A stretch of DNA of 39,824 nucleotides from Candidatus Woesearchaeota archaeon CG1_02_57_44 (GCA_001871415.1 MNWW01000030.1:1-39824); one strand, 5' to 3'; positions 19,401 to 39,824 are shown, counted from the first letter of the stretch. Translations and numbers: made by a program. The notes: generated from the letters alone by a model not told the origin.

Positions 19401-21421
19401 CAGGTGCTGATGGCGGAGCAGGACGCATTCTCCATTGCTGTGCCATTGCAATAATAGTTGGCCGCATAGGTCGTGGGGAGGGCGATGACACCGTACTTGT
19501 AGTTTGATCCTGCTGGTAGGAATGATTCCACGTCGAACCAGCCGAAGTCGGAGATGTTGAGACCTGACGCCTCAGCTGCCGCAACGATGCTGGCCGAGGG
19601 ACTCTCATTGACCTGCGTGTCATTCATCGCCGCCATCTGGCTGAGATTGATGGAGAAGCCCACGATAGCAAAGCTCTTATTTCCCTGCGTGATGGTGAGC
19701 GTGTAGTTGTAGAAGACCGGCGCCAGGTAGTCTGATGCTGTGCCGTCCTCCAGGGTCACGTTCATGGATTGCCCTGGTTTCTGGAAGAGGTCTGTCAGCT
19801 GGCTCGCGTTCACGGCCTGCAATTCTGCGAGCAAAGGACTGGTGCAGGTGACGCGGTTGAAGGTATCGTTGGCGCAGAGATAGACCGTATGCGAGCCTGG
19901 GCCCGTCAGGTTGCTCGTGAAATCAAGATCCACGCCCGCCACATAGGTCCCCTCACCGCCTGACCGTGCCATGGTGATTGCGCCGCTGTTCTGGCTCTCA
20001 AGCTGCCAGTGCGCGGTGATGTTGTACCACACGCTGTCGATGCTGGTATCCGACACATTCGCGATGAAGGTCACGTTGAGCGTAGTGTAGTTTGTGGCGT
20101 TAGGTGATATCTGAAGCACGGTCGGAGCTACGTCATCAAGTATGTAGTAGTAGGTCGCGTTGGACGCGCGGCCGAGCGAGTCGTTGGCTGTTATGAAGAC
20201 TGTCGTATTGTCAGCTTCTGCCCAGAGCGAGAGGTTTGCGGAAAGGGACATGGAGGTGTTACCGGAAGCGGCAAGTGCGTAACCCTGCAGGTTGCTGCCG
20301 CTGCTGTTGGTCACGTTCAGCTGGACGATGTCCAAAGCAGCGTCGCTCGCCACCATGATAAGCGAGCCGGATGTCGTGACGTAAGGAGTTGTCTGGCTCG
20401 GCGTTATCGTGGGCGCATCGTATGGCACTGCCGCGACGCTGGCGTTAGCGCCCTGATTGCCGCTGGTGTCATTGGCCGAGACGCGATAGCCGTAGCTTGC
20501 GCCGTTGGTGAGGCCGGTGTCCTGATACGTTGTCGCGCTTGTTGTGTTCAGGAGCGCCCAGGTGCCGGTGTTGTTGCTGAAGATGAGATAGTTCTCCAGG
20601 TCCGCGAAGGTGGTATCATCGGTGCTATTCGCGGGCGCTGTCCACGTGAGGTTGATGGTGGTGTTGCCCGCGGCCGCGTCCAGGCCCGTGACCACGCCAG
20701 GAGCCACATTGTCCAGCGGCGTCGCGTTATAGGCGATGACCGTGGTGTTGCGGTTGTCGGCCGTGTCATTGGCGATGACCGCGACCCAGGCCTCTGTGCC
20801 GTCAGCGAGGCCCTCCACATTCCAGGATGTCGCTGTGGTACTGCCATTGAAGGTCGCGCCCGATGTGCTGGTGAAGTTGGACGCGCTGACGTAGATGAGA
20901 TATTCGCTCAAGTCCGCCTCACTGTTTGCTGACCAGGACAGGGTGATGCGTCCGGAGCTGGTCGCGTTGTTCTGCACGCTGACGCCCGCGATGGGCGCTG
21001 GCGGAGAGTCAAAAAGCGTCAGGTTCGGCATGATGGCGTAGCCGTTGCTCACATCCGTCGCGGTCAGGGTGTAATTGGATGTGTTTGACTGGACCGGCCA
21101 GCTGTAATTGACGCTCAGGAGCACCACATCACCAGCGCCGGAGTAGTTAATGCTCCTGCGGAAGTGGAAGATAGCGGACTCGCCTGTGGGAAGCGCGCCT
21201 GACCGGTTGTCCAGCACGGTCGATGTGCCATTGTAGAAGACGACCACGGTGTAGGACGCGCCGGTGGCGTTGGAGCCATTCGCCAGGAGCACATGGCCCA
21301 TCATGGGCATCACGTTGATGGACGGCGGCGCGTCCGCGAGCACGACTGGCGCAAACAAGGCGCCAGCTACTCCTATCAACAGCACCCCAAGGAGCAAACG
21401 CTCCAACACGTATCTGCCCAT
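16484..21421 (-). CDS. Large surface protein: FN3/Ig-like repeats, Ser/Gly linker, PGF-pre-PGF domain, C-terminal TM and cytoplasmic tail
   Basis: Signal peptide; multiple FN3-like blocks (LSWSANSEADLSEYLIYVS, NLTWTAPANSTDD); poly-Ser/poly-Gly linker; YHWLHFDTSNM...VTWLNS...VELKTVIDAVTDNTVTYYADTPGFSYFAIG; TM FLVPLLLLILTSVGAGIVYV; basic tail. Confidence 0.93.
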   Translation of the reverse strand: MGRYVLERLLLGVLLIGVAGALFAPVVLADAPPSINVMPMMGHVLLANGSNATGASYTVVVFYNGTSTVLDNRSGALPTGESAIFHFRRSINYSGAGDVVLLSVNYSWPVQSNTSNYTLTATDVSNGYAIMPNLTLFDSPPAPIAGVSVQNNATSSGRITLSWSANSEADLSEYLIYVSASNFTSTSGATFNGSTTATSWNVEGLADGTEAWVAVIANDTADNRNTTVIAYNATPLDNVAPGVVTGLDAAAGNTTINLTWTAPANSTDDTTFADLENYLIFSNNTGTWALLNTTSATTYQDTGLTNGASYGYRVSANDTSGNQGANASVAAVPYDAPTITPSQTTPYVTTSGSLIMVASDAALDIVQLNVTNSSGSNLQGYALAASGNTSMSLSANLSLWAEADNTTVFITANDSLGRASNATYYYILDDVAPTVLQISPNATNYTTLNVTFIANVSDTSIDSVWYNITAHWQLESQNSGAITMARSGGEGTYVAGVDLDFTSNLTGPGSHTVYLCANDTFNRVTCTSPLLAELQAVNASQLTDLFQKPGQSMNVTLEDGTASDYLAPVFYNYTLTITQGNKSFAIVGFSINLSQMAAMNDTQVNESPSASIVAAAEASGLNISDFGWFDVESFLPAGSNYKYGVIALPTTYAANYYCNGTAMENASCSAISTCSATVNISSHVSIIGTDSACYEVSGSSTVIYADHFSGAFGASDITSPIVNFTLPLNASYVNSTVNITVAWNITEAYFSSAWLSNGTGNAGGNITLAGQHGQLLLNVSAAGTYTLTIFANDTSGNMGNASVALYVDTTSPNTTASSAGEARWQSAAYNVTISPSDDLQVNLTYYRLDSDSWSNSSASGAGSIVVLINTTGNHSVYYYSVDQAGNAQSTRNITALLDLTAPVPVLVTPANASTSVAVGTIISVFFNETSMNTSVLPSFSVLSLNTSQLWRGNVSWNASNQSIFIPWAWLGYDQLIQVNVTGAKDLAGNTMSPYNWTFATASLDTDGDGNPDYNETDADNDGLNDTGDYLIGNASSINTNVPLNITLNASGNLSEAFGGNLNVTFTADNQTLVQFNYTFTNTTKLVLRNLTFKKDENTSRGGSIIIRGLEAPGKTIYVTNATGAQGVCIKDSPDVQSVADISKDCDGAYETFVVCPGSTGQYACAYNGTRLRITGLNHSGVVQANDTVAPYVQSQDPYTSTNTASVITFQVNENSTCRYETGAGVAYGIMDNYFDTANNISFNATVSTPVSGNYVYYVRCQDWHGNAMTSDYEYNLSVTITSSSSSSSSSAAGGGGGGGGDSAAPTKTSQIWAAIAAGEQKSMTLAIAPIPVSRVEFTPNESVVNGKLTISAIGKPSSLDAPAEPLYHWLHFDTSNMGSFSAVRIYFRVNVTWLNSVGLRNGDVSLYRNVNGAWVELKTVIDAVTDNTVTYYADTPGFSYFAIGKESKATVSLPTQDDGSITAALTPETTSAEQTAVDIGSASGAEVGSASDTAPTNESRGAAQGQSLPALKPRGFLVPLLLLILTSVGAGIVYVRAHPLMQRPKRAMEHHDHPVVQQAQDELARYMLTHLQAGHSLREIRQHLLSHGWHKKDIDHVIKERLLKPQAKPMLEPIAQAQVQPSVAASGTATAPVRSARSRQKSRAR

Positions 21422-21515
21422 GACCTGAAGACCCCACTGCCCTTCGCCGCCCCTGATGCCTCTGCTGCATCACTGCGCGCAGATCACGACAGGCGGCGAG
21501 GCCCTTGCCTTGCCC

Positions 21516-23069
21516 TCATCCATACGACCAGGAATCATTCTGGCTGGTGCGTATCCAATAGCCCACTCCGGGCTCCACATCCGCGAAGCCGTCAAAGGAG
21601 CCGAGTATCTTGATATTCGTCTCCCAGCTGCTGCTGGACGTGTTGTAGCGCCAGAGACTGACATAGCCGGACACGTCCGCAAATACTGATGAGACTGTCG
21701 CGCTCGACGCCTGGCTATAGCCGACCATAGTCCAGGTCGCGACAAGAGAGACGTTCTGGCTCTGCTGCGTGCCGCTCACGGTCAACGTGCCGGGGCTGAG
21801 CATCTTTATCCAGTAGCCCTTGCCGATCTCAAGCACCTGCAGCTCGCCGTCCAGGATGCCCAGGCCGGACAGGTAGGTCGATGACTGCCAGCCCTGCCTG
21901 CTCGTGTTCCACCAGTAGAGGACCGTATAGTTGAGGCCGGTGAGGATGGTCTGCGCGCCCGAGGCGCTCGGCTGCAGCGGCAGGGAGAACAGGTTCCATC
22001 CTGCCGAGAGGTTGATGCTTGATGACAGCGTGGTGATGGAGCCGTTCACCTGTGTGCTGTTGCGCGAGATATGCCCCGCGTCATCATACGCGAAGACCTG
22101 AAAGTAGTAGGTATATCCGGTCAGGCCGGTATGATCGTGGGTGAGGGTCGCATTGGACGTGTTGGCGATATTGACCCAGTTGCTTGGCACCTGGGGCGGG
22201 CTTGTCGCGTTGGGCGTCGTGGTGTTGGCCATGTAGAGCATATAGCCCATGACATCGGCCGTCGATGTGCTGTCATTGTTGCTTGTGACCGCGCTCCACG
22301 TCAAGGTGATGGTGCTGGCGGAGACTGACGCAGAGAGATTGGCCACGCTCTCGGGCGCCAGGACATCAGCGACCACTCCTGCCACCGGGATGACGGACGC
22401 GTTATAATTGCCCTCCGCGTCCTGCGGGGCTATGGCGTACCAGTACGTGGCATCACTGGTGAGGCCGCTGTCCGTGTAGTTGTCGTCCGTGGTGTTGGCG
22501 ATGTTGCTCGCGGACGCTGTCGAGGAGAAGTTTGATTGGCTGCGATAGACGCGGTACAGGGCGAGGTCTGATTCTGACGACGCGCTCCAGGAGACATTGA
22601 GCTGTGTCTGCCCTGCGACTGATGCGACCGCCAGGCCAGCCACCTGCGCCGGCGGGAAGTTGAAGAGCGTCAGGTTGAGCATGATAGCATAGCCATTGCT
22701 CACGTCCGCGGCCGTGATGGTGTAATTGGACTGGTTGCGCTGGTAGGGGAAACTTGTGTTGACCACCAGGATGACCGTGTCATTCTCCGCGCTGTAGTTG
22801 AGGTTGAGACTGAAGTGATAGATTGAGCCGCCGCCCGTCGGCAATGTCCCGGCCCTGGCATCCAGGACCGTGCTGCTGCCGTTATAGTAGACCGTCACGT
22901 TGTAGCTCGCGCCTGTCGCATTGCTCCCGTTAGAAAGCAGCACATGCGCCTTGACAGGCAGCTGGTTGATGCTCGGCGGGCCGTCAGCTAACGCGACCCC
23001 CAGGAGGGCCATGGCCAAAACCGCCACCAGCACAGCCATCGCTGCATTGCCTTTGCCGACCCGTCCCAT
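21516..23069 (-). CDS. Secreted surface protein, N-terminal paralog of the 1645-aa protein, with two FN3-like domains and C-terminal GWN/GYWI repeats
   Basis: N-terminal block aligns with the neighbouring 1645-aa protein; TATA TTTATAAG at ~23093-23100 lies only ~10 nt from the ORF-track ATG (23087), so the second ATG at 23069 fits a leaderless start better. Confidence 0.9.
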   Translation of the reverse strand: MGRVGKGNAAMAVLVAVLAMALLGVALADGPPSINQLPVKAHVLLSNGSNATGASYNVTVYYNGSSTVLDARAGTLPTGGGSIYHFSLNLNYSAENDTVILVVNTSFPYQRNQSNYTITAADVSNGYAIMLNLTLFNFPPAQVAGLAVASVAGQTQLNVSWSASSESDLALYRVYRSQSNFSSTASASNIANTTDDNYTDSGLTSDATYWYAIAPQDAEGNYNASVIPVAGVVADVLAPESVANLSASVSASTITLTWSAVTSNNDSTSTADVMGYMLYMANTTTPNATSPPQVPSNWVNIANTSNATLTHDHTGLTGYTYYFQVFAYDDAGHISRNSTQVNGSITTLSSSINLSAGWNLFSLPLQPSASGAQTILTGLNYTVLYWWNTSRQGWQSSTYLSGLGILDGELQVLEIGKGYWIKMLSPGTLTVSGTQQSQNVSLVATWTMVGYSQASSATVSSVFADVSGYVSLWRYNTSSSSWETNIKILGSFDGFADVEPGVGYWIRTSQNDSWSYG

Positions 23070-23172
23070 AGTGCTTTTCGTACCCATCTGCCTTATAAAC
23101 CTTGCTCCTCATCCACTGTGCCTGAAAGGCCCCTGCTCCCGGGCGTCCTCACAACCTTGATCGCGCCCATCT

Positions 23173-24072
23173 TCATCGGAAGTAATCGCGCTTCATCCTG
23201 CGGTCATTGATGATGTAGCCACCGACCAGGCCTGCGGTCAGGGCCGCTATAGCAATGAAGACTATCCATCCAGTGCCGCTCTGCGGCGGCGCCATGATAT
23301 CATCGGCGTTAGGAGGATGCTTCGCGTCCTCCGTGGGTTCCGCCGCCGCATCCGTGGCCTGAGCGCCGCCCGCAGCCCCATCACCTGAGCCTCCGCTGGC
23401 ATCCACCTGCGTGTCCGCGGATGCGTCTGCGGCTGTGGAGCCATCCTGCAGGGCATCAGCGTCCGGGTCAGCATCGGTCGCGGGGGGCATGTAGGCCGTC
23501 GTCGACCCACCTGAAGTTGCCGATGAGCCGGATGACGCATCGCCAGAGGAAGATCCTGACGAGCCGTCGAACGGCGCGCTGTCTCCGGACGTGTCATCGC
23601 GGCCTGACACTGCCTGACCGACGCTGATATCAAGCGTATGCTCGGTTCCCGATGCGCCGATGGTCACCGGGTTCTCGTTGATCGCCTGCCCGTCCACCGT
23701 GATGGTTGCCTGCATGCCCTCGGTCAGCGTGCTGTTGAGCTGGAAGTACAGGAAGTACTGGTCAAACTGCATATCGCCCATGGTGTAGCGGGAGACTTGC
23801 GCGCCATCGACCTTGGCGATGATCACCGCGCCCGAGTCCTGCGTCAATGCTGCTCCGTCGACCGTCACGGTGCCTCGCAGCATGTGCGGTATGGCAGGAG
23901 GGGATGACGGCGCTGCGCTCACCGCCTGCATCGGCAAGGTGAGCAGCAGCATCGGTAGCGTGAGCAGCAGCATCGGTATCACGAGCATCAGCTTCGAGGC
24001 GAGGACCGCACCCGCACGCGCGCACGCAGGCCCCCGGAGGGCTGAAGAATCATCGCGTCTCATCGTGGTCAC
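23173..24072 (-). CDS. Membrane-anchored surface protein with beta-domain, low-complexity Ser/Gly/Asp/Ala stalk and C-terminal TM
   Basis: Hydrophobic N-terminus; LRGTVTVDGAALTQDSGAVIIAKVDG...EGMQATITVDGQAINENPVTIGASGTEHTLDISV; long stalk; TM GWIVFIAIAALTAGLVGGYII followed by NDRRMKRDYFR. Confidence 0.85.
   Translation of the reverse strand: MTTMRRDDSSALRGPACARAGAVLASKLMLVIPMLLLTLPMLLLTLPMQAVSAAPSSPPAIPHMLRGTVTVDGAALTQDSGAVIIAKVDGAQVSRYTMGDMQFDQYFLYFQLNSTLTEGMQATITVDGQAINENPVTIGASGTEHTLDISVGQAVSGRDDTSGDSAPFDGSSGSSSGDASSGSSATSGGSTTAYMPPATDADPDADALQDGSTAADASADTQVDASGGSGDGAAGGAQATDAAAEPTEDAKHPPNADDIMAPPQSGTGWIVFIAIAALTAGLVGGYIINDRRMKRDYFR
23939..23980 (-). repeat. Two tandem 21-bp units encoding duplicated hydrophobic heptapeptide of a signal sequence
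   Basis: gtgagcagcagcatcggta[g/t]c twice in succession; encodes IPMLLLTLPMLLLTLP on the minus strand. Confidence 0.8.
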
Positions 24073-25394
24073 CAGCTCACCGTCCAGTTGTCCGCAGCAT
24101 CAGCCGCTACATAATATGCGCGACCAGGAGTCATGAGATTGAGCGTGTTGAGGAACGAGAGCCCTGCGGAGTCGTACCAATACCAGCTGCCGGCCGCATA
24201 CGACCACACATAATAGCGCTGCGATACACTGCCAAACGCGCTCGCCATGCCGACCGTGGCATTCGCGTTGTATCCGAGCAGTTGGTAGGATGTGGCGAGC
24301 GGGACTGTCACGGAGAGATTCGTGCCGTTCACGAGCAGGGTCTGCGCGTTGCTGTCATTGACATAGAGCCAGTACCCATAGCCGGGCTGCAATGCCGCGA
24401 GGGTCCCGCCGGAGCCAGGGATGAAGTACTGCCACGATCCATTATAGGCCCAGACATAAGAATAATTGCTCCCCAGGCTCGCGAATGCGTAGGAGGGAGT
24501 CATGTTGGTCAGGTTGAGCGGGATGCTCAGCGCGTTCCATCCCGGTTGCAGGGTCGTGGTGAAGGGCGTCAGATTCGCGCCCGCGTCCTGCACCTGCGCC
24601 TCGCTGCTGTTGGACACCGTGGCATTGCGCCAATCCCTCACCGTAACATCAGCACTCACGCCTGCGACGCTCACGTTGAACCAGCAGGAGTCATTGCCCT
24701 GCACGAGCGTCCATGACGTGGAGGTCACGGCATTGTTGTTGATCGCGCCCATGTCATTCTGCTGGCTCTTGAGATCTCCCGTGATGACGCATTCGCTGGA
24801 AGGGATGGACAGGTTGGCAGTCACCGCGCCCAGGTTGCCTCCTGCGGTGATGCTCGCGGTGACCGTGAATGCGCTTCCCAGTGCCTTCTGGCTGGAGGCG
24901 CTCAGCTCCAGGTTCTTGATGCTGATGACATTGACCTGCGCGCTTGCGGCGGTGGTGTCAGATGTCGTGTCCATGAGGATGGAGCTGAACTGGTGCACGC
25001 CAGAGGTCGTTGGTGTGATGCCGGTGAACGAAGCGGTCGTGGTCGCTCCTGCCGCAATGCTGCTCGAGAATCCTGATCCCGCAAAGCTGGCCGCATTCGC
25101 CCAGGAGCCGCTGGTATAGAGGCTGACTGAATTGAGCGTCTCGGTGCTCGAGCCGGTGTTCTGGATAGCTGCCTCGCAGGTCAGCGAGCCCTGGTTCTCC
25201 ACGGTGATGGTGCCGGACTCAGAGTTGCAGGTGAAGGTGGTGACCTGCAGGGCCGCACGCGCCGCCAGCGGGAGCAGCGAGAGGGCCAGGAGCGCCACTA
25301 TCATCATCCCCGCCGGCCGTGCTGCCACGCGCAGCCAAGCCTGTCTCCAGGCCTGTCGCCTGCCCGCCTTGCTGCGCATCTGCTCATGCATCAT
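24069..25394 (-). CDS. Secreted surface protein with CARDB-like domains and C-terminal GWN/GYW repeats
   Basis: Signal peptide; ITVENQGSLTCEAAIQNTGSSTETLNSVSLY; LQPGWNALSIPL...LQPGYGYWLYV. ATG at 25394 forms a 4-nt ATGA overlap with the upstream stop codon. Confidence 0.88.
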   Translation of the reverse strand: MMHEQMRSKAGRRQAWRQAWLRVAARPAGMMIVALLALSLLPLAARAALQVTTFTCNSESGTITVENQGSLTCEAAIQNTGSSTETLNSVSLYTSGSWANAASFAGSGFSSSIAAGATTTASFTGITPTTSGVHQFSSILMDTTSDTTAASAQVNVISIKNLELSASSQKALGSAFTVTASITAGGNLGAVTANLSIPSSECVITGDLKSQQNDMGAINNNAVTSTSWTLVQGNDSCWFNVSVAGVSADVTVRDWRNATVSNSSEAQVQDAGANLTPFTTTLQPGWNALSIPLNLTNMTPSYAFASLGSNYSYVWAYNGSWQYFIPGSGGTLAALQPGYGYWLYVNDSNAQTLLVNGTNLSVTVPLATSYQLLGYNANATVGMASAFGSVSQRYYVWSYAAGSWYWYDSAGLSFLNTLNLMTPGRAYYVAADAADNWTVSW

Positions 25395-28300
25395 GGACCA
25401 CCCATGCTCGCGTTGAACCAGTTCTCCCATGACACGGCCAGCACGGTCGCCTGCGTCGCGTTCACCCAGGAAGACGCCATGGTGCCATTGATGCGGCCGC
25501 GATACCAGGACGCGGAGCCGCCCGTGTCAGCCAGCCCCTCTGTGGTGATAGCGTCCGCCCCGAGGCTGATGCTCTTGGCAGCGCCAAAGACCACTGCCTC
25601 GCGGAAGATAATCGCGTCCGCCTGCACGGGGAATGCCAGCGAGCTGTTGACGGTCAGGTTGATGGCCGTGTGGTTGAATGACGTGTCAGGATTGGTCACG
25701 TTGACCACACCTGCCGCCACGATATCTATCGGCACGAGAGAGACGTTCAGGAATGGCGCCTGCCCATCCACGGTGAAGCGCGCGCGCACCACGCTCATGT
25801 TCGTATAGGTCACATTGAGCTCCACGACACCCTGCGCTTCTACCTGAATCCTGAAGGTCCCGTTGCCATCAGCATTCACCATGGTATCGCGCCAGCTGAT
25901 GTTGCCGGCCATAGGATTGCCCTCGAGCCTCACCTCACCGGTCACGTTCACGGACTGCTGGCCCTGCCCGCCGGAGAGGTTGACCGTGAAGGTCACATTG
26001 GTGTAGGCCGACGGGTATTGCAGCGGCTGTGCGTCCTCGCCGCCGAGCCAGAGAACCGCCACGTGCGCGCCATCGGCCAATGAGGTCAGGTTGAAGGTGG
26101 CATTCATCACAGAGCTGTTGCGCACGGCCTGCGCGTCCACGCGCAGGAACACGGCGGAGACCAGCGTCAGGTTGCCCGTGGCATTGTAGATGAGGGTCAC
26201 ATTGTCCTGCCCGCTGAGGATCGCGCCCTCTGCGGGGTACGCGATGCTGATATTGGGCGGTGGCAGGACCGGGCCGGCGATGCTGACCGTGAAGCTCACA
26301 TTGCCGTACTGATCGACACCACCCAGCGGCGACCAGCCGCTGTCCGCGAGCCACGCATGCAGGACGTGCGCGCCCGGCGACGCGGTGAAGCTCTGGTTCC
26401 CGGACGCGTTCGTCGAGACATTCATCTGCTCATCGCTGTCCAGGCGGAGGATGACGCCTTGCGCCTGAGACGCATTGCCCGTCACGTTCCATACCGCGTT
26501 GACATCCACCGAAGAGATGCTCTGCCCCTCTGTCGGATAGCTTATCGAGATGTTGACCGGCGGCTGCGCTCCAGAACCCGCATCGCCCGACGCGTTCACG
26601 ACGAAGGTACGGTTGCGATACATCGGAAAGTCCGTGAACCTGACGCCATCCGGGTCCAGCAGCCATCCATGGATGACGTGCTCGCCGTCCGAGAGGCCGG
26701 TGAAGGTGTGGGCCTGCGTCACGTTCTCTTCGCTGAAATTGATCTCCTGCCCGGAGTCCATGCGCAAGGTCACCCCCGAGATGTTCTCGGCCGGGCCATC
26801 GCGATGGTAGCGGATGGTGACGGTGCTGTTCTGATAGGTCATGGGAGGGCCCTCCGGAGGCTCCTCGAACTGCAGCGAGAGCCCGCCGTCACCCATGGGA
26901 GGCATGGCGCCTCCACCCAGCAGGGTGCAGTTGCCTGTTGTGCCGATGACCTCGAAGGCGATGTTCCTCATCTGGAAGTTACGGTCCTTGTCCTCGCAGC
27001 GCACGGTCAAGGTCATGTTGTCATCACAGATCTCCGGCTGGCGGTGATGGAAGAACAGGGGGTTATCGTCCTGCGGCCAGAGCGGCTGGAAGCGATAGTA
27101 CGTCTGGTTCAGGTTCGTGATGAAGTATCCACACATCACCTTCTTGTCGGTGCTGACATTGATATCAAGACTGCCGTTGACCGGCAGGGACACCGTGCTG
27201 GCATTGAGCGGGAAATCGATGGTGACCACCGGCGGCGTGCGGTCCGTGGTACGGAAGTAGCCACGTATCGTGCCGCTGCCGCCTGTCGAAGCGTTGCGCA
27301 CGCTGAGACGCACGGCATACTCACCCTGCACCCACTGGCCATCAGGCACGATCACCAGATAGTCACCACTGCTCATGTTGGCATCCGCGCTGCCGGTTAT
27401 GGTCCAGCCGTACGCATCAGCATAGGAACGGCAGAAATCCTGGAAGCACGAAGGATCTGGCGCCGCTATCTGCACGCCGGTCACCTCGCCAGCCGCTTCC
27501 TGCCCATTGGCGTCAAAGAGCCAGACCTGCAGAGAAGCGTTCTCCGTGACACCCGGCTCATAGTAGCCCTGGAACTGGCTGTTGGCCGGGAACATGTTCC
27601 CCCAGTAGGACTGGCGGACCTGGAAGTTTATCCACTGGCTCGCCTCAAAGGTGCTTGTCGCATCATCCACTTCGCTGAACATGGTCTGCAGGCTGCTCCA
27701 TCCCTCAGGCCATCCCCCTGCCGGAGGGACAACGGTCACATTGGCCGTGTCCGTTATCTGGCAGTTGCCCTGCGCTGAGCAACCCTGCACATAGAACTGC
27801 ACATCGCCTATCCTGCTGTCATAGGACCAGATGCGGGAGAGATTGGCCTGGACCCCTGACTGAAGCATGATCTGATCCTGGGCGCTTGACAGCGCCACGG
27901 TGATAGAGACATTGCCGGCGGTCGTGACGCCGGGCGTATTGGTCTGCACATTGACAAGGGCGGACTGCACCTGAAAATTAAGCCACGCCTGCGAAGTATC
28001 GCCCGTGTCGTCATTGCGGATGATGATGGTGATATCATTGTTGCCAAGAGGCCACTTGCCGCCTGCCAGCGATGCGGGCGTGATGTTCACCTGCACCTTC
28101 GAGCCGTCGAAAACCCCCGCAGGGGTGAAATTCGTGATCAGGTCAGGCTGGCCCATGCCCCAGTTGTTGCGCTGCACGGCCTGGATGGAATAGTTGCCCA
28201 GCAGCACCGTGCCCGGACCGGCAGGGTCATTGATGGTGAGATTCCTCCCCACGATAGCGGTCCTTCCCACCTGCTCGAACATCCAGCCCATATTGACGCT

Positions 28301-31300
28301 GAAGGAGCGCACCTCAAAGAAGATACGTGCGCTGCTCGACTCTCCCTGTGCGTTCTGCAGGAGCACCTCTCCATCGTAAAAGCCAGTAGGCCAGCTTGAG
28401 CCATCATCCCGCGTGATGTTGATGACACGCGAGCCATTGATATCAGTCGCAGAGATATTGATGTCATCAGGATACGAGAACTCCTGCGGCGTGAAGGTGC
28501 TGGGGTCAAAGGAGTGCAGGCGCACCTCGGTGATGGTCGTATTGAGCAGCTGATCCTGAGGCACAAAGCCATAGGCCGGGCTCCTGCTGGTCGTCAGACG
28601 CAGGCGCAAGGGGTCGGCGGAGCGCAGCGACCAGGCGTCTGCTCCCGCGCTGTCCACGAGCTGGGCCGCGGAGAAGAAAGCCACGGCATTGAACCATCCA
28701 AAGCCGGTCTCTGTGCCGTTCAGGTCGAGCACCACGTCATAGAATCCCGAGTCCCATGCTCCGGCAGTGGGAACGATGGTCAGGACGTACTGGGACTTGT
28801 TGAAGCCTGTCCCCCAGAAGTCGCTGGAGGCATTGACGACTATAGGCGTCACGCTGTATGATGAGGGGTCCAGCTCCTGCGGAGGCCAGCTCGTGAAGTC
28901 CATTATCTTCCTGACACTGACGCGCACATCCCCGCCCAGCGATTGCTTGGACTGCCAATTCCCCGCGTTCTTGATGTCCACAAAGAGGGTCACATTATCC
29001 CGCAGGTTAAAGGAATCCTTCCATTGCCACTGCTGGGACTGGGCGCTGTACTCTGTCGGCATGGACGAGGCGAACCACTGGCGGATCTCGAACATGGCCT
29101 CGCCGTAATCAACGGTTCCTGAGGAGTCGTCGACGCCCTTGAGCACGGCCTTGTAGCTGCCCGATTTCCACTGCCCGTCGGTGAGACGCGCCGGGTCCAG
29201 CACCACGCTCCCCGAGCCGCTGCTGACCGACGATGAGGACAGCCCGGTGGTATTGTAGCCCGCGTCAACCGGCGCGGAGAGCCACTCCCCGGGACTGCCC
29301 AGATAGAGCACACGATCGATGGTCACGGTCCCGGACATGCCGCCGGAACTGCCGGACCACCATCCCTGGCCGGGCTGATACATCTGGATGCTCAGGTTCA
29401 CGGTGTCGTTGGCCTTGTTTATCCACCTGTTGGGCCATGACGCGAAGAAGAAATTGCGCGCCTCGAAGGTACCGTCACCCTTGGCCACCGTGCCGTCAGT
29501 GCCGGTGACCGTGATGTAGCCATGGTAGGATCCTCCTTCCCAATCAGCAAGGGGCTTTACCGTGCACTTATAGCCGCCATTGTTGTCCGCGGAAGTGCAG
29601 GTGCTCGCGGTGAGATTCAGCGGCGTATCCTTGCCGTTCTGCTCATTGACCACGCGATCGACCGTGATGGTGGCGTTGGTTATGGCCTGCTGGGCAGAGC
29701 TCTGCTCCTGACCATACGAGAGACAGCCACGGTCCTTCTTTCCGCGCATCCCTCCGCCCATAGGATCCCCAAAGCCCGCGCCGCCCCCCTCGGAGAAATC
29801 TTCCTTGCGCCCGCTGCCCGAGCTGTGCGTGGCCTGCGTCACCTTGAGCTGGAAGTAGACCGTGTCGGACGTGCGGAACTGCCAGACGAAATTCGGGTTC
29901 TGCCCCAGGCCATCGACAGCCGCCGCGCACAGCTCATAGGGAGCGTAGATGAAGGTCGCCTTGGCCTTTGCCGAGCGATTATTGACATAGATCTCCGCAG
30001 TGTACAGACCGCCCCTGAGCGGAGTGTTGAGCGCTATCATCTGCTTGCTGCCATTGAAAGCCCAGCTGACATTGATATCGGACGCGTTGAGCTGGGGCCA
30101 CGCGCGCAGCGTGATGTTCTGCGCTGCCCCATCCTCATAGGTCAGGCGCGAGAGCTGCGCGTCGGTGATGTTGATGGTGCCGGTGTTGTTCTTCGCGCTC
30201 ACTTTCAGGTAGACCAGGTCGGTCGCCCCGAACTGATCCTGCTGCTCGCCGTCCTTGTTCGCGCTGTACGCGGTGGCCGTCTGGTCGGTCACGGTGATGA
30301 CGCGCTCCTGCTGCTGGAGCTCCGAGGACCAGTTGACAGCCACGGCAAGCGTGTAAGCCCCTGTCTGGTTGGGCGCGGTCAGGTTGAATGTATAGCATCC
30401 CGCAGCCCCGCACGTCGCATCCCAATACGGGACAGCGCCAGCTTTGGTCGTGCCCAGCTTGTTCTTGAGCGTGATGTTGACATCGCGGGTCACATTGAGG
30501 TTCACTATCATCGAACCATTGGCCCGGTAGACCGGCGTCAGCTGGAATGAGAGATTAGCATCAGCGAACCCCCTGTAGTCCTGCAGGAAACCTGAGTTGC
30601 TCGACGCCTTGGCCAAGGTGAACGACCAGGTGCGCACACGGAACGATCCCTGCCTGCGCACGGTCTCAGTGCCATAGACATCCACATCAGCTGCGTACGC
30701 TCCTGAGCTCCAGTCAGAATCCACAGTGAACTGATAGCTGCCGATGTATGCATTGGAGCTGTTCAGGATGGTGGTAGAGATATTGGCCAGGACCCTGCCG
30801 TCCGGATTCCGGATAGTGCCATTGAAAAGATACGCCCCGGATGCAGGCGATGTGCCATTGTAGGTGACCGCGACCTCGACCTTCCCCGCATCACCCACCG
30901 TGAAGAGCCCCTTGAGGTTGGCGCCCGTGCTGTCCCTCAGCCGCACGGCCACGTCAAAAGGCACCACCTTGATGAAGGTGGACGCAAGGAAGCTGTTGGC
31001 CTCCAGACGATACGCACCTGATGTCGCCGGGGCATTGACAGTAACCGTGCAGTATCCGTCAGCATCGGTCAGCGCGCTCTGCGTCTGGGAGCAATTGGAG
31101 AAGGCGCCCAAGACGGTGTCCTGCAGGTTGCGCATGGTCGCGTTGATGGATATATTGGCCACACCCACTACTGCTGTGCCACTGTCGCGGAGCGCCTGGA
31201 TAGTGGCGGTTATCGGCTGGCCCCCATAGTAGGAGGCCTTGTCCGGCACCAGTCGTAGCTCATCCACCTGCACAGACTCCACGATGAACGACTGCTGGTT

Positions 31301-31708
31301 CTGCCAGCGCGTGCCATTGTCATTGTAGGTCGTGATGACCAGATAGGATCCTGCTGATGATGGAGCGATTATCGCGGGACTGTTGGGCGCGGAATCCGCG
31401 TCATAGGAGATGAAGATGCCCTGACTGGAGATATTGAGCGTGGTGAGCGATTGCGTCTCTCCGCCTGTCGTGCTCACATTGATGGTGACATTACCGCTGC
31501 TGACCGCGTCAGGCGCTGACGGCGGCTGACCGGGCGCTGATTGCGTGGCCTGATAGACCGCGCCGTACGCGACCATGGTCTCGCCCGGACCAAAGACGGT
31601 CTTGGTCAGCCCGGAGCGCAGGTAGATGATATTGTCAGCGCTGACAGCGCTCACGCAGCACAAGAACAGCACTGCCCATAGGCCCCACCGATTATGCTCC
31701 GACCTCAT
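25391..31708 (-). CDS. Giant (~2105 aa) repetitive Ig-like surface protein
   Basis: MRSEHNRWGLWAVLFLCCVSAVSA signal peptide; many divergent beta-repeats with W-x-x-G-x-Y hallmarks; dense N-x-S/T sequons. TATA-like aaatctttaaatat at 31766-31779 favours ATG 31708 over the track start 31759. Confidence 0.92.
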   Translation of the reverse strand: MRSEHNRWGLWAVLFLCCVSAVSADNIIYLRSGLTKTVFGPGETMVAYGAVYQATQSAPGQPPSAPDAVSSGNVTINVSTTGGETQSLTTLNISSQGIFISYDADSAPNSPAIIAPSSAGSYLVITTYNDNGTRWQNQQSFIVESVQVDELRLVPDKASYYGGQPITATIQALRDSGTAVVGVANISINATMRNLQDTVLGAFSNCSQTQSALTDADGYCTVTVNAPATSGAYRLEANSFLASTFIKVVPFDVAVRLRDSTGANLKGLFTVGDAGKVEVAVTYNGTSPASGAYLFNGTIRNPDGRVLANISTTILNSSNAYIGSYQFTVDSDWSSGAYAADVDVYGTETVRRQGSFRVRTWSFTLAKASSNSGFLQDYRGFADANLSFQLTPVYRANGSMIVNLNVTRDVNITLKNKLGTTKAGAVPYWDATCGAAGCYTFNLTAPNQTGAYTLAVAVNWSSELQQQERVITVTDQTATAYSANKDGEQQDQFGATDLVYLKVSAKNNTGTINITDAQLSRLTYEDGAAQNITLRAWPQLNASDINVSWAFNGSKQMIALNTPLRGGLYTAEIYVNNRSAKAKATFIYAPYELCAAAVDGLGQNPNFVWQFRTSDTVYFQLKVTQATHSSGSGRKEDFSEGGGAGFGDPMGGGMRGKKDRGCLSYGQEQSSAQQAITNATITVDRVVNEQNGKDTPLNLTASTCTSADNNGGYKCTVKPLADWEGGSYHGYITVTGTDGTVAKGDGTFEARNFFFASWPNRWINKANDTVNLSIQMYQPGQGWWSGSSGGMSGTVTIDRVLYLGSPGEWLSAPVDAGYNTTGLSSSSVSSGSGSVVLDPARLTDGQWKSGSYKAVLKGVDDSSGTVDYGEAMFEIRQWFASSMPTEYSAQSQQWQWKDSFNLRDNVTLFVDIKNAGNWQSKQSLGGDVRVSVRKIMDFTSWPPQELDPSSYSVTPIVVNASSDFWGTGFNKSQYVLTIVPTAGAWDSGFYDVVLDLNGTETGFGWFNAVAFFSAAQLVDSAGADAWSLRSADPLRLRLTTSRSPAYGFVPQDQLLNTTITEVRLHSFDPSTFTPQEFSYPDDINISATDINGSRVINITRDDGSSWPTGFYDGEVLLQNAQGESSSARIFFEVRSFSVNMGWMFEQVGRTAIVGRNLTINDPAGPGTVLLGNYSIQAVQRNNWGMGQPDLITNFTPAGVFDGSKVQVNITPASLAGGKWPLGNNDITIIIRNDDTGDTSQAWLNFQVQSALVNVQTNTPGVTTAGNVSITVALSSAQDQIMLQSGVQANLSRIWSYDSRIGDVQFYVQGCSAQGNCQITDTANVTVVPPAGGWPEGWSSLQTMFSEVDDATSTFEASQWINFQVRQSYWGNMFPANSQFQGYYEPGVTENASLQVWLFDANGQEAAGEVTGVQIAAPDPSCFQDFCRSYADAYGWTITGSADANMSSGDYLVIVPDGQWVQGEYAVRLSVRNASTGGSGTIRGYFRTTDRTPPVVTIDFPLNASTVSLPVNGSLDINVSTDKKVMCGYFITNLNQTYYRFQPLWPQDDNPLFFHHRQPEICDDNMTLTVRCEDKDRNFQMRNIAFEVIGTTGNCTLLGGGAMPPMGDGGLSLQFEEPPEGPPMTYQNSTVTIRYHRDGPAENISGVTLRMDSGQEINFSEENVTQAHTFTGLSDGEHVIHGWLLDPDGVRFTDFPMYRNRTFVVNASGDAGSGAQPPVNISISYPTEGQSISSVDVNAVWNVTGNASQAQGVILRLDSDEQMNVSTNASGNQSFTASPGAHVLHAWLADSGWSPLGGVDQYGNVSFTVSIAGPVLPPPNISIAYPAEGAILSGQDNVTLIYNATGNLTLVSAVFLRVDAQAVRNSSVMNATFNLTSLADGAHVAVLWLGGEDAQPLQYPSAYTNVTFTVNLSGGQGQQSVNVTGEVRLEGNPMAGNISWRDTMVNADGNGTFRIQVEAQGVVELNVTYTNMSVVRARFTVDGQAPFLNVSLVPIDIVAAGVVNVTNPDTSFNHTAINLTVNSSLAFPVQADAIIFREAVVFGAAKSISLGADAITTEGLADTGGSASWYRGRINGTMASSWVNATQATVLAVSWENWFNASMGGP

Positions 31709-31946
31709 GATGCGAATGGGCAGACCCTGCCCTACCAAAATCAGTACTCTATTCCGCACTTAGTGATATTTAAAGATTTCGGTTATTCAAACACCGTCAA
31801 AATATTGTTTTACTGATGCTTATTGCTGTCTGGAAGGCATAGCATGCGCCAGACCATCCCCCCCAGCCCAGCGAAAGAACCCGTCTGGACAGCCACACCA
31901 CCAAAGCCAGTGCCCCGGGACACGCTAAACACGCTAAAAAAAGAGC

Positions 31947-34992: not shown

Positions 34993-35065
34993 GAGCGTGG
35001 GATACCAGGTTACTTCAAAAAATCGACGGGAAAGATTATTATGCTGGGTGGTGATAGTATGCTGT

Positions 35066-36145
35066 ATGCTCACGCTCGATGGCAGCAGGTACGAGGGCGG
35101 CGGCCAGATGCTGCGCACGGCCATGGCGCTCTCCTGCCTCACGGGCAAGGATTTCCGGATGATGAATATACGGGCGGGCAGGAACAAGCCAGGCCTGAAG
35201 ATGCAGCATGTCACGGCAGGCAAACTGCTGATGAAACTCTGCGACGCGAAATGCGCCGGGTTCTTTGAGGGCAGCATGGAGATAGAATTCTTCCCGGGCA
35301 AGCCCGTCGGCGGCGTCGTTGCTGTGGACATCGGCACCGCGGGGTCGGTGACGCTCCTCTTGCAGTCCGTGCTGCTGCCCTGCTGCTTCGCGGAAAAGCG
35401 TACGATACTACGGATAACCGGTGGCACCGATGTCGCCTGGAGCATGAGCAATGATTATTTTGCTCATGTGGTGCTACCGTACTATCGGCAATATGCGGAC
35501 ATCGAGTATTCGGTCGAGCGCAGAGGATTCTATCCTGTGGGCGGCGGACAGGTGAGCATCAAGATTGTGCCCAAGCACGGACTGCATGAGTTCGGCAGTG
35601 TCGATGCGCTGCGGGCCCACCTGCAACCACTGCTGGTGGTGGAACGGGGCAGGCTGTTCTCCATCAAGCTGATGGCATCCGCGTCGTCGGACCTTGCGGC
35701 GCACAAGGTCGCTGAGCAGCAGGCGGAAGCAGCGCGCATACGGCTCGTCAGCAAAAGCACAGTTGACGTGCGTCATTCCTACGGCCCCACGGACTGCCCC
35801 GGCAGCGTGCTCTTTGGCATGGCATTGTTCTCTGCAGCAGCTGATGAGCCGCGCGAGCCTGTCCGGACAGGAGTCGATGTCCTTGGCGATGGACTGCATC
35901 CTGAAGAGGTCGGCAAGAAAGTAGCAGAGCTCCTGCTGGGGGTCATCGACTCTGGGACGCTCGATCCGCACATCGGCGATAATCTCGTGCCGCTGGTCGG
36001 GCTTGCTGGTGGGCAGGTGCGTTGTCCTGTGACGTCGCATGCCAAAGCGAACGCGCACGTGTGCGAGCAGTTCCTAGGCGGGAAATTCAATCTCTCGGAC
36101 GGGATAGCATATGAGGCTCCTACCGGAAGCGTGGATGAAGCATGA
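35066..36145 (+). CDS. rtcA: RNA 3'-terminal phosphate cyclase
   Basis: LDGSRYEGGGQMLRTAMALSCLTGKDFRMMNIRAGRNKPGLKMQHVTA; RRGFYPVGGGQV; HIGDNLVPLVGLAGG. Confidence 0.96.
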   Translation: MLTLDGSRYEGGGQMLRTAMALSCLTGKDFRMMNIRAGRNKPGLKMQHVTAGKLLMKLCDAKCAGFFEGSMEIEFFPGKPVGGVVAVDIGTAGSVTLLLQSVLLPCCFAEKRTILRITGGTDVAWSMSNDYFAHVVLPYYRQYADIEYSVERRGFYPVGGGQVSIKIVPKHGLHEFGSVDALRAHLQPLLVVERGRLFSIKLMASASSDLAAHKVAEQQAEAARIRLVSKSTVDVRHSYGPTDCPGSVLFGMALFSAAADEPREPVRTGVDVLGDGLHPEEVGKKVAELLLGVIDSGTLDPHIGDNLVPLVGLAGGQVRCPVTSHAKANAHVCEQFLGGKFNLSDGIAYEAPTGSVDEA

Positions 36146-36404: not shown

Positions 36405-36674
36405 CTATCGCCACTCCAGCAGTGTCGTCTGCACGCCTTGCTGGCGCGGGGGAAGTGGTATGAGGAGGAGCGACGCTCGCTTCGCCGCGAAGTCCGCCGC
36501 GCGCAGGCACAGGTGCAATGAGCGCTTGCGACGCTTCCTCACCACGTCCATGCGCACCCAGCCATGCCGGGTCAGGACGTGCAGGATGATCGCGACACGC
36601 TCCAGACGATGATTAAAGTCCTGCCTGAAGCGCATGCGGTCGTTGGGAAGACTATAGGTCAGACAGATGACCAT
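36405..36674 (-). CDS. Hypothetical basic protein (89 aa)
   Basis: TGATG stop-start overlap with the preceding small ORF; Arg/Lys-rich, weak support otherwise. Confidence 0.4.
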   Translation of the reverse strand: MVICLTYSLPNDRMRFRQDFNHRLERVAIILHVLTRHGWVRMDVVRKRRKRSLHLCLRAADFAAKRASLLLIPLPPRQQGVQTTLLEWR

Positions 36675-36802
36675 CAGGACTCACCCATGCATGATAAGAG
36701 AAGCCTGAGGGGGAGCAGGATGACCGCGAGAAATGCCACCTTGAAGCACTGCATAGTCAGACTGCCGGAGAGCCGTGCCGGGTCAGGATATAGCATGGCC
36801 AT
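36674..36802 (-). CDS. Putative small ORF with hydrophobic segment (42 aa)
   Basis: MAMLYPDPARLSGSLTMQCFKVAFLAVILLPLRLLLSCMGES*; starts 4 nt after the preceding stop and overlaps the next ORF (TGATG). Confidence 0.4.
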   Translation of the reverse strand: MAMLYPDPARLSGSLTMQCFKVAFLAVILLPLRLLLSCMGES

Positions 36803-36806
36803 GGTG

Positions 36807-36941
36807 TCAGCATCCTTCGGCCGGGTACCGGTAGATGGACAGCAACAGCATGCTGCAGAATCCCCGCACGATGAACCACTCAAGACCGTCTTTGACCTTC
36901 CGGCTTCGCTTGCCGCGCTCGCGCTTTGACAGCGGTCTCAT
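36807..36941 (-). CDS. Putative small ORF with hydrophobic segment (44 aa)
   Basis: Not in ORF track. MRPLSKRERGKRSRKVKDGLEWFIVRGFCSMLLLSIYRYPAEGC*; ATGA overlap with the AAA+ ATPase stop. Confidence 0.45.
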   Translation of the reverse strand: MRPLSKRERGKRSRKVKDGLEWFIVRGFCSMLLLSIYRYPAEGC

Positions 36942-38374
36942 CCGAACATGACCTTGGGGGGCTCTATGAGAGCGCGGTATGAATCGTCAGGGATATAGCC
37001 AAGCTCCAGATACTGCACCATCAGCTCCTCCCAGACCCTGTCCAGCTCCCGATAGGAGCCGCCTTCGAGGCGACGCGAGAGCATCTCGATATCCAGACCG
37101 GGGATATGCTCACGGGTCTTCTCCGTGAGATACTGCACCCGCTCCTCATGAGTCGGCAAGGGAAACTCTATCTCGACAAAACGGTCGCGAAACGCGGGGT
37201 TGAAGCGCTGCGGCTCGTTCATGGATAATATCAGCGTCCCCTTGAAACTGCGCTTGAATGCACTGTCCAGAAGCTCCTGAAAATCACCCACGAGAAAAGT
37301 ATCCTCGCCGTATCTGTGATTGCCGAAGAGTTTCTCGGCCTCGTCAATGAAGACTATGGCGTTCGGGTGCGTCTCAACCAGACTGATGACCCGTCGCAAT
37401 ACGACCAGAGGATACTGCTTCAGCTTGTCTGATTTGAGCAAAACAAGCGGGCTCTTGAGCTCGCCCGCGATGGCCCTTGCCGTGAATGTCTTTCCTGTGC
37501 CAGCAGGCCCATGGAACAGAAAAAAACAAGAGGTCCTGATTCCCAATGCCTGCGCCCTCACAGACTCCTTCCTGAGCACACAGATGCGCCTCACTGCCCG
37601 CAGCACATCCTTCTTGCCTATCAGGTCAGATAATCCCTGCTTAATGTCACGCAACATATCAAAGTCATCGGGCACACCAAATATCTCATGCATCGCCTTT
37701 CGCAATGTCTTCGCGGTGATGGCATCGGCATATAATGACGCCTGGAAGATGACACGGTCCAAGGCGTCATAACTTTGCTCGTCGGCCGCGTTGACCAGCA
37801 ATGATGCCTGCCTTGCGGACAGCTGTGGGTGGAACAGACGCAGATATCTGAGGCGCTGGGATCTGGAGGGAAGGTCGAATGGCACTGACTCATCCCCACT
37901 GATAACCATTTGCTCTGACTGCACCACAAATAGTGGGATGCCCCGGTGTCGTGATTCTCTCTTTATCCGCAGGAATAACTGCGCAGCCCTATAGAAATCT
38001 GGTGACTCGTTATCCCCAGCGAAGTGTGGTACTGCACCAAGAAAGATAATACCATTCATCTTGGGTACGCAGTCAAGCAGTTCCGTGAGCGTCTGACATT
38101 GGATGCCCATGCCCGGAAGGCCAATCGTTGCGACAGGAGCTAGTGTCCGGGCAAGAGCTTTTGCGAGCAATATTGAACCAGAGCCTTCGTACCTTGTAAA
38201 TGCCAGTTGGCTTACTGGACTTGTACCCAGGCGCTCTGGATGGGACAAGAGCAACTTGTAGTGCTCAGGGATATTGCAGAGCTCAAGGGCCTGCGCGACG
38301 GAGAGGTCTGGATCCGCTCGCTGATACCCCTGCCCATCAGGACGGGAGGGAAGTGGCTCATCAGGAGATCTCAT
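36938..38374 (-). CDS. AAA+ ATPase (478 aa), apparently with degenerate N-terminal and intact C-terminal AAA modules
   Basis: Walker A FLFHGPAGTGKTFTARAIAGEL, Walker B NAIVFIDEAEKLF, sensor-1 TLILSMNEPQRF, Arg-finger region NPAFRDRFVEIEFPLPTHEERVQYL. ATG at 38374 makes a 4-nt overlap with the upstream stop. Confidence 0.93.
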   Translation of the reverse strand: MRSPDEPLPSRPDGQGYQRADPDLSVAQALELCNIPEHYKLLLSHPERLGTSPVSQLAFTRYEGSGSILLAKALARTLAPVATIGLPGMGIQCQTLTELLDCVPKMNGIIFLGAVPHFAGDNESPDFYRAAQLFLRIKRESRHRGIPLFVVQSEQMVISGDESVPFDLPSRSQRLRYLRLFHPQLSARQASLLVNAADEQSYDALDRVIFQASLYADAITAKTLRKAMHEIFGVPDDFDMLRDIKQGLSDLIGKKDVLRAVRRICVLRKESVRAQALGIRTSCFFLFHGPAGTGKTFTARAIAGELKSPLVLLKSDKLKQYPLVVLRRVISLVETHPNAIVFIDEAEKLFGNHRYGEDTFLVGDFQELLDSAFKRSFKGTLILSMNEPQRFNPAFRDRFVEIEFPLPTHEERVQYLTEKTREHIPGLDIEMLSRRLEGGSYRELDRVWEELMVQYLELGYIPDDSYRALIEPPKVMFG

Positions 38375-38997
38375 CTCACTTCCTCTTTGGGCGTCAGCTT
38401 CGCGCCCAGATATTTCTTCTTCAGCCACGGCGCGCAATACATGGGCACCTTGGATTCGGTCACAGGACCATTCACCAGTATGATGTCAGCGTCAATTGGG
38501 TCATCAGACTCCTGTATCTCGATGCGCCCGGCTTCCACGAGCGTGATGAGCGCTGCCATGTCCCAAGTGGAGGACGCCAGCTGATTCTTCATGGCCACAG
38601 CAAGGGACATGACGAAGCGGCGCACATCATCCGGCTCACGCGCTATCGCCTGCATGACCTTGGGATAGTCCCACATGCGATGGTGCGCGAGGTCATAGTC
38701 GCCCTCTGCGTCCTGCTCATCGAGGACCTGCTTTGGCAGGCACAGGAAGAGCGCAATCGCCTCCTCCTGAAGCTCTGGACTGTGCACCCATGCTGAGTCA
38801 CCGTCATCAGTGGGAGGCTCCTCACAGCCCTCAGGAAGGATGGCATAGCAGTAATTGCTGCCCTCTGCCTTGAACGGCGGCTTGCCGCGCACCACTCTCG
38901 CGCTGTCGGCCTTCTCAGCCAGACCTATATCGCCGCCCAATGCCCTATACTGCTCGATGAATCGCTCTGCTTCTTGGTCCATGATAGCATCTGTCAT
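38371..38997 (-). CDS. Hypothetical protein (208 aa) coupled to AAA+ ATPase
   Basis: First gene after an AT-rich divergent promoter region; ATGA overlap with the AAA+ ATPase gene. Confidence 0.75.
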   Translation of the reverse strand: MTDAIMDQEAERFIEQYRALGGDIGLAEKADSARVVRGKPPFKAEGSNYCYAILPEGCEEPPTDDGDSAWVHSPELQEEAIALFLCLPKQVLDEQDAEGDYDLAHHRMWDYPKVMQAIAREPDDVRRFVMSLAVAMKNQLASSTWDMAALITLVEAGRIEIQESDDPIDADIILVNGPVTESKVPMYCAPWLKKKYLGAKLTPKEEVR

Positions 38998-39059
38998 GTA
39001 TCCTGTTTAATATATATTTCTATATTCCAGTAGAATAATTTAAATAATAGTATAATCTA

Positions 39060-39073
39060 CCATCAAGTGATGG
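39060..39073. promoter_or_regulatory. Inverted repeat CCATCA-AG-TGATGG in the CARF/AAA+ divergent intergenic region (candidate operator)
   Basis: Perfect 6-bp arms, 2-nt spacer, next to the TATA-like ccttttaacc of the CARF gene. Confidence 0.5.
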
Positions 39074-39108
39074 AAAACCTTTTAACCTCCCCTGATGACC
39101 AGCGATGC

Positions 39109-39708
39109 ATGGGGAAGAAGGTATTGATAGCATCGCTTTATTCCGCAGACCCGGTCATCTTGGCTGTGACGCGACTGGGCGCTGAACGGCTCATCCTCCT
39201 GGTGGATGATGACGCCAACAAGGAGCAGGAGAAGTCACTAAAGCTCATCCAGGACTCGCTGGGAAGGGTCATCGACGTCAAGACTGTCAAGGTCGGCACG
39301 TACGACGTGCTGGGCACGGCCCGGAAGGTGGCTGAGGTCATCATGATGCAGCCCAGCGAAGACTGGATATACGTCAATGTCACGGGCGGCAGGAAGACCA
39401 AGGCATTGGGATTGCTGTATGGAGCATACGCCAGAGCTGAACGAGTGCGCAAGATCGCCTATAACGCCGACGACAAGAAGACCGTCGTGTACCTGCCCAA
39501 GATGGGCTATAACCTGAAAGACAGCGAGAAGACGGTCCTTGACGCGGTGGCGTCAGGCAGGTACACTACGCTTGCGGCTCTCGCCGAAGGCGTCGATATC
39601 TCACGCGCCATGCTGTATCGCAATGTCAAGGAGCTGGAGGCGAACGGATACCTCGACATGACGGATGGGATCAGATTGACGATGGCTGGAGAATTGGTGA
39701 GGGTGTGA
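39109..39708 (+). CDS. CARF-domain winged-HTH protein (Csa3-like regulator)
   Basis: N-terminal KVLIASLYSADPVILAVTRLGAERLILLVDDD, DWIYVNVTGGRKTKALGLLYGAYA (CARF-type G-G-x-K loop), C-terminal wHTH SEKTVLDAVASGRYTTLAALAEGVDISRAMLYRNVKELEANGYLDM. Confidence 0.86.
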   Translation: MGKKVLIASLYSADPVILAVTRLGAERLILLVDDDANKEQEKSLKLIQDSLGRVIDVKTVKVGTYDVLGTARKVAEVIMMQPSEDWIYVNVTGGRKTKALGLLYGAYARAERVRKIAYNADDKKTVVYLPKMGYNLKDSEKTVLDAVASGRYTTLAALAEGVDISRAMLYRNVKELEANGYLDMTDGIRLTMAGELVRV

Positions 39709-39824
39709 TGAATGCACAGTCCAAGATTGCTATTGCTGATTTAATGAATCAGATCACTGTCGAAGATGTGACATCAATTGAAAAAATTGCAGAGGAGTGC
39801 CTTAAGAGATTATGTATGTTTAAG
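39708..39824 (+). CDS. Unknown protein, N-terminal fragment (truncated by window edge)
   Basis: TGATG coupling with the CARF-wHTH stop; open frame MNAQSKIAIADLMNQITVEDVTSIEKIAEECLKRLCMFK to the window end; notably AT-rich. Confidence 0.6.
   Translation, partial: MNAQSKIAIADLMNQITVEDVTSIEKIAEECLKRLCMFK

Follow-up and report, generated by a model that had tools for sequence, protein, structure and literature searches.

The window, i.e., the whole stretch of DNA analysed here, is contig C58 in its entirety (39,824 bp), one of the 77 contigs of a 1.53-Mb draft genome that is 82% complete. Woesearchaeota are tiny DPANN archaea with reduced genomes, mostly without CRISPR. The locus lies at the right end of the window and is readable only to position 39824. 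Its gene for a regulator with a CARF domain and a winged helix-turn-helix (CARF-wHTH) faces a minus-strand operon in which the genes for a 208-aa protein and an AAA+ ATPase are coupled by an ATGA overlap. On the other side, a truncated downstream gene is coupled to the regulator gene through the TGATG at 39706-39710. Both the tightly coupled divergent pair and the coupled truncated gene are as originally predicted. An identity search with the truncated gene gave no match. It is visibly AT-richer than the rest of the locus, and in this it looks like recently acquired cargo, a weak indication in 117 bases. The features are collected in Table 1.

Table 1. Features of the CARF locus at the right end of the window.
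Feature	Position	Strand	Basis
CARF-wHTH regulator, 212 aa	39070..39708	+	Families, fold, PDB matches; start from N-terminal extension of relatives; pocket motif
Operator arm TTTCTATATTCCAGTAGAAT	39017..39036	+	15.4 bits leave-one-out; sole site in own genome
Expected partner arm, degenerate in window copy	about 39037-39056		Right arm undetectable
208-aa protein, first gene of divergent operon, no family	38371..38997 (start may be 38982)	-	ORF and codon-position composition
Tandem-AAA+ ATPase	36938..38374 (longer ORF to 38437)	-	PF00004, 1.6e-16; alignment with CARF-adjacent L051, L056, L057, L090
89-aa basic protein, probably real	36405..36674	-	32% over 57 aa to ORF by another CARF locus
Truncated downstream cargo gene	39708..39824	+	Overlaps CARF stop (TGATG); no match

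The original prediction placed a CARF domain and a wHTH at 39109-39708. The domains stand, whether judged by Pfam (HFX_2341_N, 1.8e-10), by NCBIfam (Csa3 TIGR01884, 64.4 bits against a cut-off of 60.2), by PADLOC or by structure. The best family match, full-length, is to PADLOC CARF3 (PDLC01849, 'CARF3--CARF'; 204.8 bits, 2.5e-61). That is, judged by this sequence match the family is already catalogued as a PADLOC cluster; the catalogue entry comes without operator, cargo or function, which are described here for Woesearchaeota. The AlphaFold model (pLDDT 91) has as its top PDB matches in Foldseek the Csa3 structures 2wte / 6wxq, apo and cA4-bound. A CARF Rossmann domain is thus followed by a winged HTH, the arrangement expected of a CARF-wHTH protein. 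The predicted start, on the other hand, had to be corrected: because the relatives keep a conserved 'MENYINE'-like N-terminal extension, translation is assigned to the ATG at 39070 rather than to 39109.

The ligand-pocket motif reads N-V-T-G-G-R-K in the window protein and N-[IV]-T-x-G-R-K in its general form. It contains the Gly and the basic residue of a CARF ligand pocket, and the pocket Lys109 is invariant in 47 sequences. The pocket motifs described for Csa3 are T-h-G-F-(N/D)-E-X4-R (motif 1) and L-X2-G-h-R (motif 2) (PMC8699464). Here, motif 1 is replaced by T-L-Y-x-x-(E/D)-P; of motif 2, the Gly is kept and the Arg, at the Arg98 position, is a Lys. The same genome encodes a second CARF-like wHTH protein of 217 aa (contig C5:6054-6524 / L139:5931-6584, minus strand), which sits in a metabolic context and is without the G-x-K pocket motif. 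Comparable weak full-length matches are found in many genomes of the phylum.

In the divergent operon, the start of the AAA+ gene is probably the ATG that overlaps the 208-aa stop; for the 208-aa gene, translation may begin at the sixth codon. Its product matches no family and has no homologue among 79 relatives, plasmids, phages and viral contigs, and the single-sequence fold of this product (pLDDT 46) is unusable. The AAA+ protein has an intact C-terminal AAA domain; its N-terminal AAA domain has lost the Walker A and B motifs, which are intact in the homologues at loci L051, L056, L057 and L090. With the AAA+ protein alone as query, a search of 79 genomes returned exactly two foreign matches better than 1e-40 (3.9e-44 and 1.1e-43). 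Each of them is encoded divergently from a CARF relative, which places the CARF/AAA+ arrangement beyond chance. No homologue of either gene was seen in a housekeeping context without CARF: the close AAA+ homologues adjoin CARF genes, and those of the 208-aa gene are not detectable.

The AAA+ protein was also compared with named systems. As TRIP13/CBASS, or as IetA proper, the window copy is too weak. Its C-terminal ATPase resembles IetA (7e-12; 4e-36 for the protein at L049), but the window protein carries a second, degenerate N-terminal AAA domain and scores 35 bits against an NCBIfam cut-off of 510. Moreover, the 208-aa and 89-aa neighbours match no family, so that there is no IetS subtilase.

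Two smaller ORFs of 44 and 69 aa had been read as hydrophobic-segment peptides and joined with the AAA+ ATPase in a membrane-peptide module. Neither has a homologue in our searches, and the 69-aa ORF has a codon-position composition resembling non-coding DNA (GC2 0.57). The module is therefore not supported as a unit, its peptides being unsubstantiated and its AAA+ protein one of many exchangeable neighbours. The 89-aa basic ORF fared better: a single relative, at L049:12029-12199 beside another CARF locus (E = 6e-8), suggests that it is probably real.

Could the CARF gene, the AAA+ gene and the gene of a small protein belong together as a single, fixed system of defence, with an IetA-like AAA+ effector, a small adaptor and the CARF protein as dedicated sensor? 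The close AAA+ homologues do adjoin CARF in these data, and a small protein often stands between the two. This small protein varies, however: it is the 208-aa protein in the window, F8 in the IetA-like type and F47 at L051/L090. The AAA+ cluster is present at only 11 CARF loci, and its two subfamilies have small partners that are unrelated to each other; the second, IetA-like subfamily takes the same position at L049, L052, L094, L107 and L110. Given as well a 208-aa protein without homologue and a window AAA+ that is only weakly IetA-like, we consider a fixed system unlikely.

Two further observations concern the rest of the window. A gene for RtcA, the RNA 3'-terminal phosphate cyclase, adjoins the locus at 35042-36145 (+). 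RtcR is also a CARF regulator; a link of the RtcR kind between CARF and RtcA was ruled out, as no RtcA lies near any other CARF locus. At 16484-31759 (-), very large ORFs of 1645 and 2122 aa flank two others of 523 and 453 aa. The first of the very large pair, of 1645 aa, gave Big_5 and fn3 domains and nothing else, and no domain was recognised in the other three ORFs; the very large ORFs are possibly surface proteins.

A motif search of the intergenic regions of the CARF loci returned TTTCTATTATTTAGTATAAT with its inverted copy immediately after it, an inverted repeat of about 40 bp. Scored with a leave-one-out matrix, 25 of 26 loci show the second arm at spacer 0 or -1; its mean score is 9.9 bits, against -6.9 +/- 0.96 for dinucleotide shuffles. 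Its position is nearly exclusive. Thirty-four arm matches of at least 15 bits fall within 220 bp upstream of CARF and one elsewhere in 784,519 bp; this lone exception comes from L093, where a Bro-N gene stands ahead of CARF and the match, upstream of that gene, heads the CARF-containing operon. Both arms, at spacer 0, are also present in the held-out locus L136, which comes from another order and lay outside the training set. The arm ends (TAGAAA) overlap, on both sides, BRE-like sequence beside TATA-like boxes, the BRE and TATA labels being assigned by consensus and the promoters putative. The window copy has a clear left arm but no detectable right arm, for which 65 of 100 shuffles score equally well. 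A wider regulon was ruled out, the own genome holding one operator site.

The operator is confined to the strict CARF clade, the more distant CARFs being without it. Several members of one distant clade (L109, L111, L113, L114 and L115) share a different motif close to the start, resembling GTGAGATAATTC...GAGTAA, which is perhaps a second operator type. A partial literature search found no paper on this archaeal hub or its operator, both of which we regard as well supported.

Within the order, 44 of 353 genomes, belonging to 41 of 220 genera, carry a CARF relative. At the 54 loci analysed, the CARF gene usually stands first in a tight operon, with a divergent gene 70-200 bp away. Conservation of the gene neighbourhood had been proposed as a check, and it separates two components: the CARF gene and the inverted repeat are constant across loci, whereas the flanking genes are swapped. 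CARF pairs that are 93, 91 and 86% identical have almost entirely unshared neighbours. Defence-type families abound downstream: the PD-(D/E)XK nuclease family PDDEXK_1 accounts for 12 and Bro-N for 11 of 129 genes, in tallies that count homologous genes repeatedly and use gene calls from a simple ORF caller. Other downstream families are DUF2779/PDC-S13, GmrSD, SLFN_AlbA_2 (Schlafen-AlbA), GajB-like UvrD, Eco57I and N6 methylases, RhuM and ORF6N; on the divergent side there are, among others, AAA+, nSTAND3, ThsB-TIR and type I methylase genes. Among 116 genes that served as a distal control in the same loci, no PADLOC family rises above three. At least one of twelve defence-type families is present in 21 of the 28 strict loci with readable cargo, and none in the other seven. 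Linkage to defence genes is by itself weak support, because defence genes cluster anyway.

Bro-N, ORF6N and RhuM genes are characteristic of mobile elements. Such phage-type cargo, together with the high turnover of neighbours, would fit a CARF gene that merely travels with defence islands or a mobile element and exerts no control over its neighbours. Against this, the operator keeps its exact place between the two promoters irrespective of the neighbours, at L093 it stands at the operon head and not next to CARF, and no relatives were found in viral contigs, for which reason a viral origin was rejected as well. A passenger role is thus very unlikely.

CARF domains are known chiefly as readers of the cyclic oligoadenylates (cOAs) made by type III CRISPR systems, and the usual cOA synthase is Cas10. 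Neither cas1 nor cas10 was found in the own genome, an 82% complete draft. Of the 353 genomes in the order, 17 have a detected Cas1, and so have four of the 44 that carry CARF (no Cas1 was found in the other 40); a Cas10 palm domain scores over the cut-off in two of the 353 and in none of the 44. The absence of Cas from a single genome is weak evidence because the drafts are incomplete; the pattern over 44 genomes is not weak. As a side observation, Cas10-palm-like domains with weak to moderate scores are found in Woesearchaeales ORFs of about 360-506 aa, at G010:C1:876773-878763 (L127), G347:C38 (L125) and G350:C110 (L126). These ORFs could encode stand-alone nucleotide cyclases, i.e., candidate signal makers.

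That the protein is an ordinary Csa3, which regulates a CRISPR-Cas locus just past the contig end or at another place in the genome and answers type III cA4, is most unlikely: the NCBIfam match over cut-off, the Csa3 folds and, in genomes G023 and G163, a cas1 gene that shares contig and island with CARF at a distance of 8-10 kb speak for it, and the Cas1 and Cas10 counts, the other cargo on long neighbouring contigs, the missing motif 1 and the Arg-to-Lys change in motif 2 speak against it. The likeness to Csa3 extends to domain order, fold and a palindromic site by BRE/TATA, which in Csa3 is CAPPa (PMC8699464). The differences are that the operator of the window clade is another, longer one, and that the linkage to CRISPR-Cas (mainly type I-A) which marks Csa3 is not found in most genomes, incomplete as these drafts are. 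Because pocket motif 1 and this linkage are both lacking, the protein is a CARF3-type CARF-wHTH and not a Csa3 in the strict sense.

The CARF-wHTH protein, in our view, is likely to serve as a ligand-gated and probably autoregulatory switch, resident at a site where defence genes are exchanged. A dimer would bind the inverted repeat between the two divergent archaeal promoters, with the outer ends of the arms overlapping the BREs of both. It would control two operons: its own, made up of CARF and the cargo behind it, and the divergent one, which in the window is the 208-aa/AAA+ pair, the function of which may be antiviral. Most likely both operons would be repressed in uninfected cells, and a nucleotide-type signal bound in the CARF pocket would release both. 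Repression and release are suggested by the overlap of the operator with both BREs. The precedent of Csa3a, in which a palindrome lies 12 bp upstream of BRE/TATA, would instead suggest activation (PMC8699464). Of the characterised relatives Csa3a is the nearest; it is described as activating acquisition genes, and its DNA binding in vitro was not altered by cA4 (PMC8844856, PMC8699464). Both facts count against the switch, as do the undetectable second arm in the window and the seven loci without a defence-type family.

The best analogy for such a switch is found in bacterial defence islands, in the WYL regulators BrxR/CapW; these come with diverse defence systems, and each binds an inverted repeat at its own promoter (PMC9122601). 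In both cases, a regulator made of a ligand domain and an HTH is encoded with diverse, exchangeable defence systems, and an inverted repeat lies at the regulator's own promoter, with both arms in the clade and one arm in the window. The window protein differs in that its promoters are archaeal and its operator lies between two divergent operons, and since its ligand domain is CARF and not WYL it is not a member of that family. It is best read as an archaeal CARF counterpart that would work like BrxR/CapW. Regulation of defence by CARF and WYL domains was proposed in 2014, including CARF genes unlinked to CRISPR (PMC4012209).

The original prediction of a nucleotide-signalled defence locus pointed in the right direction, outside CRISPR, given the 40 carriers without Cas1 and the own genome without cas1 and cas10; nucleotide signalling itself is possible. 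Tentatively, and at somewhat less than even confidence, we suggest that the locus belongs to a CRISPR-independent, second-messenger immunity of DPANN archaea. The CARF switch would sense a nucleotide signal that does not come from Cas10 and, through a bidirectional operator that is conserved, open entire exchangeable operons of defence genes. Infection would thereby control any defence set inserted at the site.

To summarize, a CARF regulator has been maintained over many mostly CRISPR-less genera, its operator conserved while the flanking genes turn over. Two questions thereby become testable: what ligands CARF domains have where CRISPR is not involved, and by what means archaea with reduced genomes keep a large and potentially toxic defence cargo under control. 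Numerous cargo proteins are unannotated, and the operator motif, nearly exclusive to these sites, is a practical marker for new defence genes in DPANN genomes.
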